NCBI GenBank assembly: GCA_012799725.1 | Contig: JAAZKR010000212.1 | Span: 1-38,158, forward strand | DNA length: 38,158 nucleotides | Direction: 5' to 3' | From: Oligosphaeraceae bacterium | Lineage (GTDB): Bacteria; Verrucomicrobiota; Lentisphaeria; Oligosphaerales; Oligosphaeraceae | In this document: positions 993 to 36,668 of the stretch, piece by piece | Numbering within the stretch: position 1 is the first letter of the stretch | Layout of the letters: every line of letters starts with the position of its first letter | Notes under the pieces: generated by a model | What the model was told of the DNA's origin: nothing | Seen by the model: the letters and a program-made list of their open reading frames with translations, nothing else | Databases searched by the model: none | Made by a program: the position numbers and the translations under genes

Positions 993-1430
993 GTTCTTTA
1001 CTCCAAAACTAAAAGGCAATATTTCTAAAACAAACGTAAACATCAAATATATTACTTCCAGATGATATTTCAACCTGCAAGAGGCAATTAACGCGCATTA
1101 CACGCATTAACGCGAACGTAAAATGCGATAATCTGTGGAATCTGCGGGAAAAACAAGAAGTTGAAATCATCAAGAAGTTTTTATGTGTGCCAAGCCATTG
1201 GCCAGATGTGGTCGTATGCCTTTGTTTGATTTTGTTTCATTGCAATGTCCTCAAAATTGCACTACAGTAGATGGCGTGCTTTCCAATGCACACTGAAAAT
1301 GCACCTCTCCACCATAAAGGTGTGCATTTAATTCTGTAAATTGCGAAGCCTGAGTTTAGTCTTTCAAATTACCGTTTATTTATTATCGTCCATAAAAAGC
1401 TGATAGCGTCTGACAGAAGGAATGCTGTTC
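993..1430. other. Intergenic region between divergent genes, repeat-rich
   Basis: This gap of about 440 bases must contain the promoters of the minus-strand small basic protein and of the plus-strand hydrolase. It holds the short repeats at 1086-1150 and, at 1285-1293 and 1320-1328, a 9-bp inverted repeat (AATGCACAC and GTGTGCATT) about 100 bases before the hydrolase start. TGTGCATTTAATTCTGTAAA (1321-1340) is a partial copy of the 50-bp repeat found at 8726 and 35668. I see no other gene here. Confidence 0.5.
1086..1150. repeat. Short tandem and dispersed intergenic repeats
   Basis: The spacer upstream of the small basic protein gene carries near-tandem 9-10 bp units (ACGCGCATT, ACACGCATT, AACGCG at 1090-1113). 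They are followed at 1129-1150 by ATAATCTGTGGAATCTGCGG, a member of the 'atctgtg/atctgcgg' dispersed repeat also seen near 18880, 21390, 33755 and 33841. Confidence 0.5.
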
Positions 1431-6160: not shown

Positions 6161-6820
6161 TTAAAACGGGAGGTCATCCACCACATTATCAGCGTCTTCT
6201 GCCTCGATCTCAGCGGAGGTGTCGGACTGCTCCGGCAATGGTTTGAAAGCCGGCATATTAGCCCCGGCGGGTGGGTTGTAGACCGGAGGTCTTCCGGCGG
6301 CGGGTGGAGGAGCCTGACCATAGGACGGCGCCGGCTGTCCATAACCTGGCGCAGCCTGACCGCCGTAGTTTGGTGCGACTTGTCCATAACCTGGCGCAGC
6401 CTGACCGTAAGGCGGTGCTTGATATGGCACCGCACTCGTCCCCTGATAGCCAGCCGGTTGTTGAGCAGGATAGCCGCCTTGCTGTGCCAGGCCACCGAGC
6501 AACTGTTGACGCTCAACGGTCACTGACAAACGGCTGCGTTTCTTGCCGGTCTCACGGTCGTCCCATTGTTCATATTGCAGACGCCCTTCAACGAAAAGCG
6601 GACTGCCTTTACGACAGTACTGCTGGATGACCTCGGCGCTGCGTCCGAAAGCAGACAAGTCCACATAGCAGACGTCCTCACGCTGCTCACCACTGGCCAA
6701 AGTGACAGTACGGTTGATAGCCATGCCGAAATTGCACACTGTACCACCGCGGGGCAATTGACGGCTCTCCGGATCACGGGTTAAATTACCGATAAGAAAA
6801 ACCTTGTTCAAATTAGCCAT
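6161..6820 (-). CDS. ssb: Single-stranded DNA-binding protein
   Basis: SSB coats single-stranded DNA during replication and repair. The start was set at 6820 (219 aa; MANLNKVFLIGNLTRDPE), with a strong AGGAGG 7 bases upstream; the frame open to 6946 is only read-through into the rpsF end. The OB fold spans about residues 1-110. The linker is long, rich in Gly, Gln, Pro and Tyr, and built of GYGQ-type repeats. The tail ends in an acidic stretch and DDLPF, the tip that recruits partner proteins. It starts 25 bases after rpsF. Confidence 0.97.
   Translation of the reverse strand: MANLNKVFLIGNLTRDPESRQLPRGGTVCNFGMAINRTVTLASGEQREDVCYVDLSAFGRSAEVIQQYCRKGSPLFVEGRLQYEQWDDRETGKKRSRLSVTVERQQLLGGLAQQGGYPAQQPAGYQGTSAVPYQAPPYGQAAPGYGQVAPNYGGQAAPGYGQPAPSYGQAPPPAAGRPPVYNPPAGANMPAFKPLPEQSDTSAEIEAEDADNVVDDLPF
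6336..6407 (-). repeat. 27-bp direct repeat inside the ssb linker
   Basis: Identical 27-base copies at 6336-6362 and 6381-6407 encode repeated Gln-Ala-Ala-Pro-Gly-Tyr-Gly-Gln units of the SSB linker. Diverged partial copies lie around them. The repeat can expand or contract by slippage without changing the frame, since the copies are 45 bases apart. Confidence 0.85.
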
Positions 6821-7968: not shown

Positions 7969-8604
7969 TCATGCTTCGTCGCCAGCCTCACTTGCAGCTT
8001 GGCTCTCTTCCTCGCCGCCTTCTGCTTCCTCTTCACTTTCTTCGTCCACATCAGCCACTCTGGACATTCTCACTTGGAAGACAGTCTGTTCCGGATCGCC
8101 CACAGCAGTCACCCCTTCGCCAAGCTGCAAGTCAGCGATAAGCAGCGACTCATCCAATTCCAAAGCGCTCACGTCCACCCTTATTGCATCGGGCACATTT
8201 GCAGGCAAGCATTCGACTTCAATTTCGCGCAGGATTTGCTCCAGCTGTCCGCCGCTCTTTTCGCCCACCGCTGTTCCTTCGCTGATAACCGGCACCGGCA
8301 ATATGACGGGTTCATCGGCCTTGACCGCCAAAAAGTCCACATGCAGAATTTTACCGCTTATGGGATGATTTGCGATTTCCTTAGTGATAGCGCTACGCTT
8401 GCCTTGGCCATCTATCTTCAACTCTACTACGCCTGAGTGACCAAAAAGCTTTTCGGCACTGTCATAGTCCATACTTAAGTTCAGGTTGGGCTCACCGGCG
8501 CCGTAAAGGACGGCCGGCACCGAACCGCCGCGACGCAAACGCCGAGAGTTGGCGGAGCCAAAAGCCTGACGCGGTTGAACGGAAATAGTAAATGCGTTGC
8601 TCAT
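7969..8604 (-). CDS. rplY: 50S ribosomal protein bL25 (CTC/long form)
   Basis: bL25 binds 5S rRNA. The N-terminal L25 domain (about 1-92) contains RRGGSVPAVLYG and a conserved HPISGKILHVDF segment. A second beta domain (about 95-185, typical of the CTC/general stress form) follows, then a very acidic Glu/Ser/Ala tail of about 30 residues. The length is 211 aa. AAGGA lies 11 bases upstream of the ATG. It is the first gene of the rplY-pth-rpsF-ssb-rpsR-rplI set, and a candidate promoter lies about 65 bases upstream. Confidence 0.95.
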   Translation of the reverse strand: MSNAFTISVQPRQAFGSANSRRLRRGGSVPAVLYGAGEPNLNLSMDYDSAEKLFGHSGVVELKIDGQGKRSAITKEIANHPISGKILHVDFLAVKADEPVILPVPVISEGTAVGEKSGGQLEQILREIEVECLPANVPDAIRVDVSALELDESLLIADLQLGEGVTAVGDPEQTVFQVRMSRVADVDEESEEEAEGGEEESQAASEAGDEA

Positions 8605-8670: not shown

Positions 8671-8679
8671 AATATAGCA
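8671..8679 (-). promoter_or_regulatory. Candidate extended -10 element for the rplY transcript
   Basis: On the minus strand the spacer reads TGCTATATT followed by ATG CG, matching an extended -10 (TGnTATAAT-like). It lies about 67 bases before the rplY ATG. No good -35 is seen at the usual distance, which an extended -10 promoter can tolerate. Assigned by eye only. Confidence 0.35.
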
Positions 8680-8725
8680 TGGCAAATTGTTATAATCAAT
8701 CAAAATTGATCAAAATTGCATTAGG

Positions 8726-8775
8726 TGTAACTGGAAAAGTTAAACGCACGCTTTTTGTGCATTTAATTCTGCAAA
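8726..8775 (+). repeat. 50-bp dispersed repeat, copy 1
   Basis: These 50 bases recur exactly, inverted, at 35668-35717. The block starts TGTAACTGGAAAAGTT and ends GCATTTAATTCTGCAAA. It has TGCA on both sides of an AT-rich core (TGCATTTAATTCTGCA). A 20-base related piece is at 1321-1340. All three lie between genes. Confidence 0.85.
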
Positions 8776-18542: not shown

Positions 18543-18913
18543 CAAGCTTAAGCGTCAATGAAAGTTAATTAACAACACACTACTATAATATGAATGGTCG
18601 GCTTTAGCAAATAAGCACCGCCCTAATCCAAACTCGACAAGGTAGACCTTGCGACATTATGAACGCGACACCTTCCAAGCGCTGATTTTAGGGATGTTCT
18701 TGCCTCGGGTGACCGAAGGCGAAGAGTGAGGCCGCCCGAGGCTATGCATGGTGCAGCCCTTGCCGGAGCTCCACCGACTTGTCCGATTTGTCCGTCAGAG
18801 CTACAACCCTATAAAATTTCCGCGTCTCCTGTATCTTCGTGGAAAACATATAGGTTATATGCATAGCCCACACTAAGAAAATCTGTGTGATCTGCGGATA
18901 AAATAAATGTAGC
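18543..18913. other. Spacer with GC-rich inverted repeat and 'atctgtg' repeat
   Basis: This gap of about 370 bases carries an 8-bp perfect inverted repeat (GCCTCGGG at 18702-18709, CCCGAGGC at 18735-18742), a segment (about 18800-18835) resembling 37620-37650 (both have CTATAAA and TTTCCG), and a copy of the dispersed ATCTGTG/ATCTGCGG repeat at 18880-18905. No gene is seen. The AsmA-like gene promoter should lie near 18550-18620. Confidence 0.5.
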
Positions 18914-33518: not shown

Positions 33519-33920
33519 AAACGCTCCGACAAACGAAAAAACAAAGCAACTGGAAAATATAATGCCTTAGACAAAAAAATCACTTGGGAAAGAAGATAAA
33601 TGCCTAAACCGAGCTACAAAACGCGGAACATTTCAGTTTTAACATGAAACTCGGTCGTTCGAGTTCGTCTAAAAAGCACCTGAAATAGCTGTATTGTTCC
33701 AAAGTAATAGCTTATTCTACTGTAAGTGCTGGTTTATAAAAAGATTTTTATTTTATCCGCAGATTTACTCAGATTAGCACAGATTTTTTAGGGCGCAGAT
33801 TTCCTATCTCAGGAGCGCATTTTCAAAGCAAGCCCTAAAAGATCTGCGGCATCTGTATAATCCGTGTAATCTGTGGATTGAGTCTTTCAACTGGGTTGCG
33901 GACGATCAGTCCGCGCCAAT
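33519..33920. other. Intergenic region with promoter, repeats and long hairpin
   Basis: This gap of about 400 bases holds the NfnA promoter region, an AACATTTCAGTTT string (33628-33640) that recurs at 35718, and a long imperfect hairpin at 33755-33882. No gene is seen. Confidence 0.5.
33755..33882. repeat. Long imperfect inverted repeat made of 'atctgtg/atctgcgg' units
   Basis: The left arm runs from ATCCGCAGATT (33755) to TTTTAGGGC (about 33784-33792). The right arm runs from GCCCTAAAA (33832-33840) to AATCTGTGGAT (33868-33878). Both arms carry copies of the ATCTG(T/C)G dispersed repeat in opposite orientation, with a GGGC/GCCC clamp at the inside. The loop is about 40 bases. It is a candidate for a strong RNA hairpin or a small palindromic repeat element. 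Confidence 0.65.
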
Positions 33921-35160: not shown

Positions 35161-35184
35161 GGCGCATCGACAAATTTAGTGGCT
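35161..35184. repeat. Left terminal inverted repeat of the ISL3 element
   Basis: It reads GGCGCATCGACAAATTTAGT then GGCT and is the inverted partner of 35608-35631. The stop codon of the truncated transposase (TAA on the minus strand) lies within it, so the deletion fused the reading frame to the element end. Confidence 0.75.
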
Positions 35185-35436
35185 TCTCAGTGGCCTTGGC
35201 ATCATGTCCAGATGGATGTAAGTCTGGAACTCGCAGGTGTCCAAGTGCCGCCAGACTCGTTCAGGCGCATGGTCGTGCACAGGGCATTCCGCCATGCAGT
35301 CCGGACAGCGAAACATCGACGGCGCATGCTCAAGCCACACATCGACACGAAGTGCGTCGCCAAAGCATTCCACAAGAACCACCTTCCATGGCTTTGGAGG
35401 CGCAATGACACTTTGATAAAAAGCAACTAAATCCAT
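35176..35436 (-). pseudogene. Truncated ISL3-family transposase, N-terminal zinc-finger part
   Basis: The fragment of about 80 native residues reads MDLVAFYQSVIAPPKPWKVV, then FRCPDCMAECPVHDHAPERV and WRHLDTCEFQTYIHLDMMPR. That is the zf-ISL3 cysteine/histidine domain ahead of the helix-turn-helix. The next expected segment (CPEHG-like, then the DDE catalytic domain) is absent, and the frame ends in six residues (PLRSH region) encoded by the left inverted repeat. The start at 35436 is set by family resemblance; a longer frame from 35490 has no support. It cannot be catalytically active. Confidence 0.8.
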
Positions 35437-35554
35437 GTTTTCTCGAATCCGTAAAAAATCGTTTGATTGGCTACGTCGAGAATATACCATTGCCGGCAGG
35501 AATTGTTGCGTTGTTGCTTATTAATCTTGAGGGGGGATTTTTAAGGGTTGCGGT

Positions 35555-35617
35555 CAAACTTAGTGGCTGCTTTTACGACGACTTTCACTCAAAAACCACG
35601 TAAAATCAGCCACTAAA
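35555..35617. repeat. Strong hairpin inside the ISL3 derivative
   Basis: TTAGTGGCTGCTTTTACG (35555-35572) pairs with CGTAAAATCAGCCACTAA (35600-35617), 17 of 18 positions. The inner arm is an extra inverted copy of the terminal repeat sequence. Transcribed from either strand it would fold well, as in hairpins that shield IS genes from outside transcription. Confidence 0.7.
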
Positions 35618-35631
35618 TCTGTCGAAGACCC
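35608..35631. repeat. Right terminal inverted repeat of the ISL3 element
   Basis: Read on the minus strand it begins GGGTCTTCGACAGATTTAGT, a form typical of ISL3-family ends. It is adjacent to copy 2 of the 50-bp repeat, 36 bases outward. Confidence 0.75.
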
Positions 35632-35667
35632 ATTTCAATTTACGTCACTTGAAAAAGCAAACGCACC

Positions 35668-35717
35668 TTTGCAGAATTAAATGCACAAAAAGCGTGCGTT
35701 TAACTTTTCCAGTTACA
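35668..35717 (-). repeat. 50-bp dispersed repeat, copy 2
   Basis: This is an exact inverted copy of 8726-8775, located between the ISL3 remnant and the rhomboid gene. It is followed on the plus strand by AACATTTCAGTTT, a string also present at 33628, which may extend the repeat family. Confidence 0.85.
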
Positions 35718-35816
35718 ACATTTCAGTTTACACGGCAGTCATTGTTTTGTTCATCTCAAATGCGAGTATATTATAGATTTGTCCTCGATATTTTTCCAGC
35801 TTAAAGGTTATTCATT

Positions 35817-36668
35817 ATGTTAAGCGATCGTGACTACATGCGCAATCCACACCAATACGGTCGGCGTCCTGCTATGACACCGCGCATGTCCATCATCAAG
35901 CGCATCATTATAATCAACTGCGTCGTTCATCTGCTCTGCCTTCTTACCGGTGGCAGTCAAAGCCGGATAGCGTTTGCGCTGTCATTAAGTCCAGCTCTAG
36001 TGATGCAAGGTCAAATTTGGCGTCTGCTTACTTACATGTTTGTGCACGGCGGCATCTGGCATCTGTTTTTCAACATGTATGGTGTTTATCTTTTTGGCAG
36101 CTTGCTTGAACGTCCCTTGGGTGAAAAGCGTTTTTTGACGCTATACTTAACCAGCGGGCTTATAGGCGGGTTGTTTTGGACACTGGCCAACTGGGGTTCC
36201 TATGTGCTCTGCGTTGGTGCCAGTGGCGCACTGTTCGGGCTCATGGTAGCTGCCGCCATGGCTTTTCCGCATGCTACGTTCATACTGCTCATACCACCAA
36301 TCCCGATAAAACTCTGGGTCTTGGTTTGGATCTATGTCCTCATAGAATTGCTCTCTTTGTCGGGAGACAGCAATATTGCACATCTGGCACACTTGGGCGG
36401 AGCTCTGGGAGGATTCCTTTATATGCGCCGTCTAGGCAGCAAAGTATCGCTGCCAAAATTTGAATTTCTACGTAAACTCTTCCGAAAGACACCCAAAAGC
36501 CCTTGGGGCAATGCCCAAAAACCGGCTTATTCCGGTGACAAAGCCCCCTTAGACTCAGAGGAACTGGATCGGGTACTGGATCGTATCTCAATAGTTGGCT
36601 ATGAAAATCTCAGCGAAGCAGAAAAAGAAGTTCTGCGTAGAGCCAGCGAAAGACTTAGACAAAGATAA
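35817..36668 (+). CDS. Rhomboid-family intramembrane serine protease
   Basis: This is a six-helix membrane protease that cuts within or near membrane helices. The first membrane segment is at about 27-43, then HGGIWHLFFNMYGVYLFG (about 77-94) and the catalytic GASGALFG (Ser136), with the catalytic His in IAHLAHLGGALGG (about His192). The C-terminal cytoplasmic tail (from about 240, EELDRVLDRISIVGYENLSE) matches the small helical tail domain seen on many bacterial rhomboids. The length is 283 aa. AAAGG lies 9 bases before the ATG. A possible -10 (TATATTAT) lies at about 35768. The substrate is unknown. Confidence 0.95.
   Translation: MLSDRDYMRNPHQYGRRPAMTPRMSIIKRIIIINCVVHLLCLLTGGSQSRIAFALSLSPALVMQGQIWRLLTYMFVHGGIWHLFFNMYGVYLFGSLLERPLGEKRFLTLYLTSGLIGGLFWTLANWGSYVLCVGASGALFGLMVAAAMAFPHATFILLIPPIPIKLWVLVWIYVLIELLSLSGDSNIAHLAHLGGALGGFLYMRRLGSKVSLPKFEFLRKLFRKTPKSPWGNAQKPAYSGDKAPLDSEELDRVLDRISIVGYENLSEAEKEVLRRASERLRQR

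Follow-up and report, generated by a model that had tools for sequence, protein, structure and literature searches.

Several described systems bear on the repeat analyzed here. Canonical IS30 duplicates 2 bp of its target (PMC9333248). TnGBS, ISLre2, and ISKra4 encode Mutator-type transposases and insert upstream of sigma-A promoters at a constant spacing, which for TnGBS is 15–17 bp upstream of the -35; TnGBS-type elements with unequal ends take one orientation (PMC3942029). CRP, as a class I activator, also depends on distance from the promoter: activation from -61.5 is strong and from -71.5/-72.5 it is clear, with weaker activation from -81.5/-82.5 and none from -66.5 (PMC6301791).

Here, we describe an intergenic 50-bp repeat from the window (the whole stretch of 38,158 nt that was analyzed). 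The repeat is very likely the left (L) terminus of an IS30-type transposable element that is targeted upstream of sigma70 promoters and whose relatives encode an IS30-family DDE transposase. The relatives' transposase resembles the IS30 family (IS30, IS1655, ISApl1) in its match to the IS30 model, its HTH_38 domain, and its DDE core. Canonical members of that family, however, duplicate 2–3 bp, whereas the duplication is 13 bp for the element in G000, the window's own genome, and 13–14 bp in relatives. Their ends are simple, with one short terminal inverted repeat, whereas arrays of several sites occupy both ends here, and they insert into palindromic hot spots or beside inverted repeats rather than upstream of promoters. 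We have not filed the G000 element as an IS30 member, as its duplication is not 2 bp, its ends are not simple, and its own transposase is unseen.

Fixed distance and single orientation are shared with TnGBS, ISLre2, and ISKra4 (p-MULT 3 and 4). In contrast to the 15–17 bp of that group, the predicted -35 lies 26 bp from the L tip in G000 and 36–38 or 47 bp from it in relatives, with a single case of 15 bp (L158), and the relatives' IS30-type transposase is unrelated to the Mutator type. TnGBS, ISLre2, and ISKra4 duplicate 8–9 bp of target. Unlike them, the element here uses several discrete distances and makes a longer duplication (13–14 bp). Our search of the open-licence literature found no IS30-type element with 13–14-bp repeats or promoter targeting, and thus no earlier description of an IS30-type transposase combined with a long duplication and promoter targeting.

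Comparison of the window with itself showed that positions 8726–8775 (plus strand) and 35668–35717 (minus strand) match in inverted orientation at 50/50 bp, as the original prediction had stated. Its partial copy at 1321–1340 also stood (19/20 identical to the repeat), as did its placement of all three copies in gene spacers, before rplY (bL25), a rhomboid gene, and a Peptidase_S9-like hydrolase gene. The claim that the repeat is beyond chance was borne out by the core TGCATTTAATTCTGCA, which at ≤2 mismatches occurs three times in the window against 0.08 expected, and 45 times in G000 against once for a reversed control pattern. The extent of 50 bp is exact for the match, but the feature at 35.6 kb extends over 75 bp (35643–35717), with a 25-bp right (R) end following the L end. 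The features are as follows.

1321–1340, plus strand: decayed internal L-end site, TGTGCATTTAATTCTGTAAA, continuing as TTGCGAAG, like the G009 L end
7969–8604, minus strand: rplY (bL25 / TL5), downstream of the predicted promoter at 8671–8699
8671–8699, minus strand: predicted rplY promoter, TTGATT at 8699–8694, 17 bp, TATATT at 8676–8671
8726–8775, plus strand: solo L end, from the exact 50-bp match and alignment with other copies
35630–35642, minus strand: target duplication, distal copy, TAAATTGAAATGG on the minus strand, adjoining an ISL3 remnant
35643–35717, minus strand: complete mini-element of 75 bp, running from the R tip (35643) to the L tip (35717)
35718–35730, minus strand: target duplication, promoter-side copy, TAAACTGAAATGT on the minus strand
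35742–35772, plus strand: predicted rhomboid-gene promoter, weak -35 at 35742–35749, -10 TATATT at 35767–35772
35817–36668, plus strand: rhomboid protease gene, downstream of the predicted promoter at 35742–35772

The solo L end begins with the tip TGTAACTGG at 8726, an inverted terminal site, followed by one direct site, GTGCATTTAATTCTGCAAA; no R end follows 8726–8775. The mini-element consists of an L end (35668–35717) and an R end (35643–35667, with the R tip match at 35643–35666), and its two target copies agree at 11/13 bases, an eroded pair. At both loci, the -10 of the predicted promoter starts 49 bp from the L tip (at 8726 for rplY and at 35717 for the rhomboid gene). The site at 1321–1340 is without a tip and without a clear promoter register. 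The original remark on a nearby ISL3 end was fair: a truncated ISL3-family remnant at 35163–35630, with an open reading frame (ORF) at 35176–35490 (minus strand) that carries a Zn_ribbon_ISL3 domain, adjoins the distal target repeat of the mini-element.

G000 is a draft genome from a UBA1407-like family of the Lentisphaeria (3,254,403 bases in 314 contigs). The repeat could have been confined to two copies produced by one recent duplication, but G000 contains 19 L tips (TGTAACTGGAAAAGTTAAACGCAC, ≤3 mismatches) and 11 R tips (GTGCGTTTACTTTTTCAAGTGACG), with none for either reversed pattern. Six contigs break off ~125 bp inside an identical L end and six others terminate within an identical R end, which indicates that multi-copy, full-length elements broke the assembly and that their body is missing. 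When searched from both ends, the body was absent from the G000 assembly, and transposase P0001 found no relative in G000 at E ≤ 0.001. We infer that the missing copy encodes the same kind of transposase as the relatives.

The ends are long and asymmetric, with arrays of several GTGCRTTTA-type sites at both and a 28-bp period in L. The long L end holds three direct sites at this spacing (TGCATTTAATTCTGCA, TGCATTTAATCTTGCA, and TGCTTTTAATCCTGCA), and the outermost sites of the L and R ends form imperfect inverted repeats (TGTAACTGGAAAAGTTAAACGCAC / CGTCACTTGAAAAAGTAAACGCAC). The ~75-bp mini-elements join the first 50 bp of L to the last 25 bp of R within a site common to both ends. This shared site has the L-type base in some copies and the R-type base in others, as expected from deletions between the two repeats. 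Like bacterial MITEs, the 75-bp copies are short and non-coding, with both termini and flanking target repeats (exact 13 bp at L050 and L112, eroded in the window copy). Their form suggests internal deletion between sites repeated at the two ends; a 75-bp copy made in place by deletion from an L to an R repeat would have the same structure as one that had moved as a short element. Copies in G003, G008, G009, G010, and G017 are decayed or incomplete. At one further G000 locus (L111, G000:C260:23788-23837), the L tip is present as three tandem 13-bp copies (TGTAACTGGAAAA) ahead of a truncated L end, and the target duplication has this length too.

Comparison of the flanks, which the original prediction had suggested for finding boundaries and target duplications, revealed 13-bp repeats. 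L and R junctions from separate G000 contigs pair through GCGAACGCTGGAA, TGGAGGCAAAAAA, TTTTCTTGAATTT, and AATAATATTTTTT, the first of these being 12–13 bp, as one base may belong to the R tip. Two mini-elements (L050 and L112) have exact 13-bp flanking repeats (AAGCGGCATTCCT and TATTTCATAAATT). Among 208 L × R pairings, no other scored near these 13-bp pairs, and the next best was the window mini-element (11/13). Direct repeats of 13–14 bp also abut the matched tips of complete relatives (G141 AAAAAGTTTCCAA, G247 CCCAATTTTACTTT, and G239 AACGCGCGGCGACG) and of plasmid copies in Butyrivibrio (TAGCTTATTTAACT) and Collinsella (CCCAGAGAGTCCC(C)). Contigs L154, L156, L158, L159, L160, and L167 from a viral collection have 13–14-bp duplications too, with a length ambiguous by 1–3 bp in some. 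Several Lentisphaeria copies showed no clear target duplication.

Two IS30 plasmid elements served as controls. The element from L. plantarum has a 2-bp repeat and no long repeat, as expected of canonical IS30. The more distant element from L. helveticus (L169, NZ_CP094501.1) is flanked by a 13-bp repeat, ATTTGCATACAAG, with a -10-like box close to the tip; the group with long duplications may therefore be wider than traced, and long duplications are perhaps common in part of the IS30 family. At two promoters, the element is followed by the target repeat and then by an older L end, which indicates that the same place was hit twice. A contig considered as a circle junction (G016:C99, R end then L end) was rejected as such because a 13-bp target repeat lies between the ends, making it a tandem insertion. 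In G054:C1, the flank of an L tip at 1428595 and that of an R tip at 1910919, 480 kb apart, carry almost the same 13-bp target repeat (AAATTTTCGGTGC / AGATTTTCGGTGC), which looks like recombination between two elements.

The link between these ends and a transposase comes from relatives. The 3.4-kb element in G012:C51 comprises an L-type array with the 28-bp period, a Cys-rich ORF, a small helix-turn-helix ORF, a 440-amino-acid transposase, and an R array. Its transposase scored 97.3 bits against the NCBIfam IS30 model (NF033563; cut-off 80). Homologues occur in G010, G003, G157, G143, G054, G265, and G239, with more distant ones in the Butyrivibrio and Collinsella plasmids, and they adjoin like sites or inverted ends. 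One complete relative is the element of Butyrivibrio fibrisolvens pNP243 (NZ_CP146964.1, about 125,248–126,999). An IS30-type transposase lies between such ends in G012, G157, and G143, and beside one such end in other relatives. All ten aligned transposases fit the IS30 model and retain D261, D322, and E361 (P0001 numbering), and the relatives' protein combines an N-terminal helix-turn-helix (HTH_38) with a DDE core. No Mutator-type model was among the Pfam and NCBIfam matches of the ten; weak IS481/IS21 matches were seen. For a relative on a contig of a viral collection, the predicted structure (pLDDT 74.6, pTM 0.50) was of good quality just for the catalytic core and the helix-turn-helix. 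The folds it matched were those of IS21 IstA and of retroviral integrase cores; these matches reflect the general DDE fold and carry no information on targeting.

The original prediction had placed the copies near promoters and had proposed looking for a position bias relative to transcription starts; the nearness to promoters proved to be the key fact, as both distance and orientation are fixed. Sigma70-like promoters were predicted by consensus in flanks read outward from the L tip and compared with shuffles made by Markov resampling of the same flanks; sites within one genome are not fully independent. In UBA1407-type genomes, 21/29 L ends face a predicted -35/-10 pair whose -10 starts 47–51 bp from the tip, against a mean of 1.0 there and ≤6 anywhere in shuffles. 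For G000 alone, a -10-like box falls at 46–52 bp in 14/20 tips (shuffles 3.8, maximum 9), and the predicted -35 is 26 bp from the L tip.

A separate sample covered all tips fitting one pattern in eight Lentisphaeria genomes outside the UBA1407-type family (51 L tips and 11 R tips). There, the -10 lies at 57–61 bp in 28 of the 51 L tips (shuffles 2.7, maximum 10) and in none of the 11 R tips, and a second group of L tips has it at 69–72 bp. Predicted promoters also face the L tip with the -35 at 36–37 bp in G141, G247, G239, Collinsella, and weakly in G203, at 47 bp in G157 and one G054 copy, at 26 bp in L156, and at 15 bp in L158, the single such case. Overall, the -10 distances cluster at about 38, 49, 60, and 71 bp, in steps of ~11 bp or about one helix turn; the estimate of the period is rough, as a few peaks dominate it. 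Taking the -10 box as -12 to -7 puts the L tip near -51, -62, -73, or -84. About a quarter of UBA1407-type L ends and more of the other tips (L102, L115, L116, and G353 tips) have no promoter in register.

The genes behind the register promoters look ordinary and have no common function. They include rplY and the rhomboid gene, both confirmed, and others assigned only from the appearance of their products, which are pilin-like and S1-type proteins, a LacI-type regulator, and an HPr-like protein. At rplY of the sister species G001, the leader and -10 are conserved and there is no L end, which indicates that the promoter was there first. The repeat structure, duplications, distance, orientation, and phasing, together with the linkage of ends and transposase in relatives, are demonstrated at the level of sequence and predicted promoters.

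Such a distribution might also arise if insertion were random or broad and copies survived where harmless, the space upstream of promoters being a safe place. The intergenic position of all window copies and the decay of many copies would fit. Harmlessness, however, would not fix the distance within a few base pairs, the orientation, or the ~11-bp steps, nor does it account for repeated insertion at the very same site, and we regard selection after broad insertion as very unlikely. An operator spread through a regulon, rather than a transposon end, would likewise sit at a fixed position upstream of many promoters, and a position near -62 fits class I activators such as CRP (PMC6301791). Yet a pure regulator site leaves unexplained the target duplications and the transposase genes linked to such ends in relatives; R ends, tandem insertions, full-length copies that break contigs, and downstream genes without a common function also count against it, making an operator highly improbable. 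The original prediction had offered a mobile repeat end, a regulator site, and a small RNA motif as options; the first is borne out by the target duplications and R ends, and Rfam models gave no match to the window at gathering thresholds for the third.

The target habit itself, insertion in a single orientation and at a set spacing on the upstream side of sigma-A promoters, is that of the Mutator-type group of TnGBS, ISLre2, and ISKra4 (PMC3942029), and no transposase is seen inside any G000 copy. The G000 element could then belong to that group, with the IS30-type transposase of relatives a coincidence. The G000 element nevertheless agrees with IS30-type elements such as that in G012:C51 in its terminal sites and their sequence, in the 28-bp period, in the length of the duplication, and in its placement relative to promoters, and the ten of ten transposases matching the IS30 model, with no Mutator-type model among the matches, make membership in the Mutator-type group quite improbable.

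For an IS30-type element targeted upstream of promoters, the GTGCRTTTA-type arrays in the ends would presumably be bound by the transposase. Insertion duplicates ~13 bp of target just upstream of a sigma70 promoter, with the L end set toward the promoter and the -10 box about 38, 49, 60, or 71 bp from the tip. On this reading, the window contains a solo L end before rplY and, before the rhomboid gene, a 75-bp copy with an internal deletion. Unequal ends would give orientation, as proposed for TnGBS-type elements (PMC3942029). From the geometry, we favor, though with fairly low confidence, a mechanism in which the L-end-bound transposase docks on promoter-bound RNA polymerase, perhaps on the alpha C-terminal domain, much like a class I activator. 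Docking in one rotational register, on the face of the helix from which class I activators work, could lead to insertion upstream in that register and would explain the helical phasing. L tips near -62, -73, and -83/-84 fall at positions like those of class I activator sites (CRP, lac promoter), which favors docking on promoter-bound RNA polymerase, although here the feature is a transposon terminus, not a regulator, and a tip differs from a site center.

Among the sources found, promoter-directed insertion in bacteria has so far been documented for Mutator-type elements. If our reading is correct, a second, unrelated transposase lineage, with a 13–14-bp duplication and distances in helical steps, has the same habit, which would point to convergence on promoters as safe places to land. 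Such a lineage would also offer a means of testing how a transposase locates a promoter, since several discrete distances need explaining. If docking occurs, an IS30-type lineage would read the transcription machinery itself, and single copies might serve as portable regulatory sites of the class I type. Where a genome has no transcription map, its L tips may point to promoters, and in annotation such repeats should not be taken for operators.

Other repeats were seen beside these copies. Flanks of L050, L115, and L116 share a further interspersed string (GGGTCAGTCTTCTGTAGT / CATTCTTCTGTAGTGC) that accompanies several G000 copies, and two ATTACCTGG-type variants (L115 and L116) sit in this string without a promoter. 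The window holds a 27-bp exact direct repeat (6336–6362 / 6381–6407, 45 bp apart) inside an open reading frame region, and an exact 18-bp inverted pair, ATCTGCGGATAAAATAAA, at 18890–18907 and 33747–33764. Strings resembling the latter (ATCTGCGGATAAAAAT) lie near other G000 loci (L012 and L023) and are perhaps another interspersed repeat. A 28-bp repeat, ATGCCGTTTTTTACCGCTTATGGGATGA, occurs at 40–67 and 8341–8368 (89% alike), and a similar string flanks the C27 copy (L014); this may be a further repeat family.
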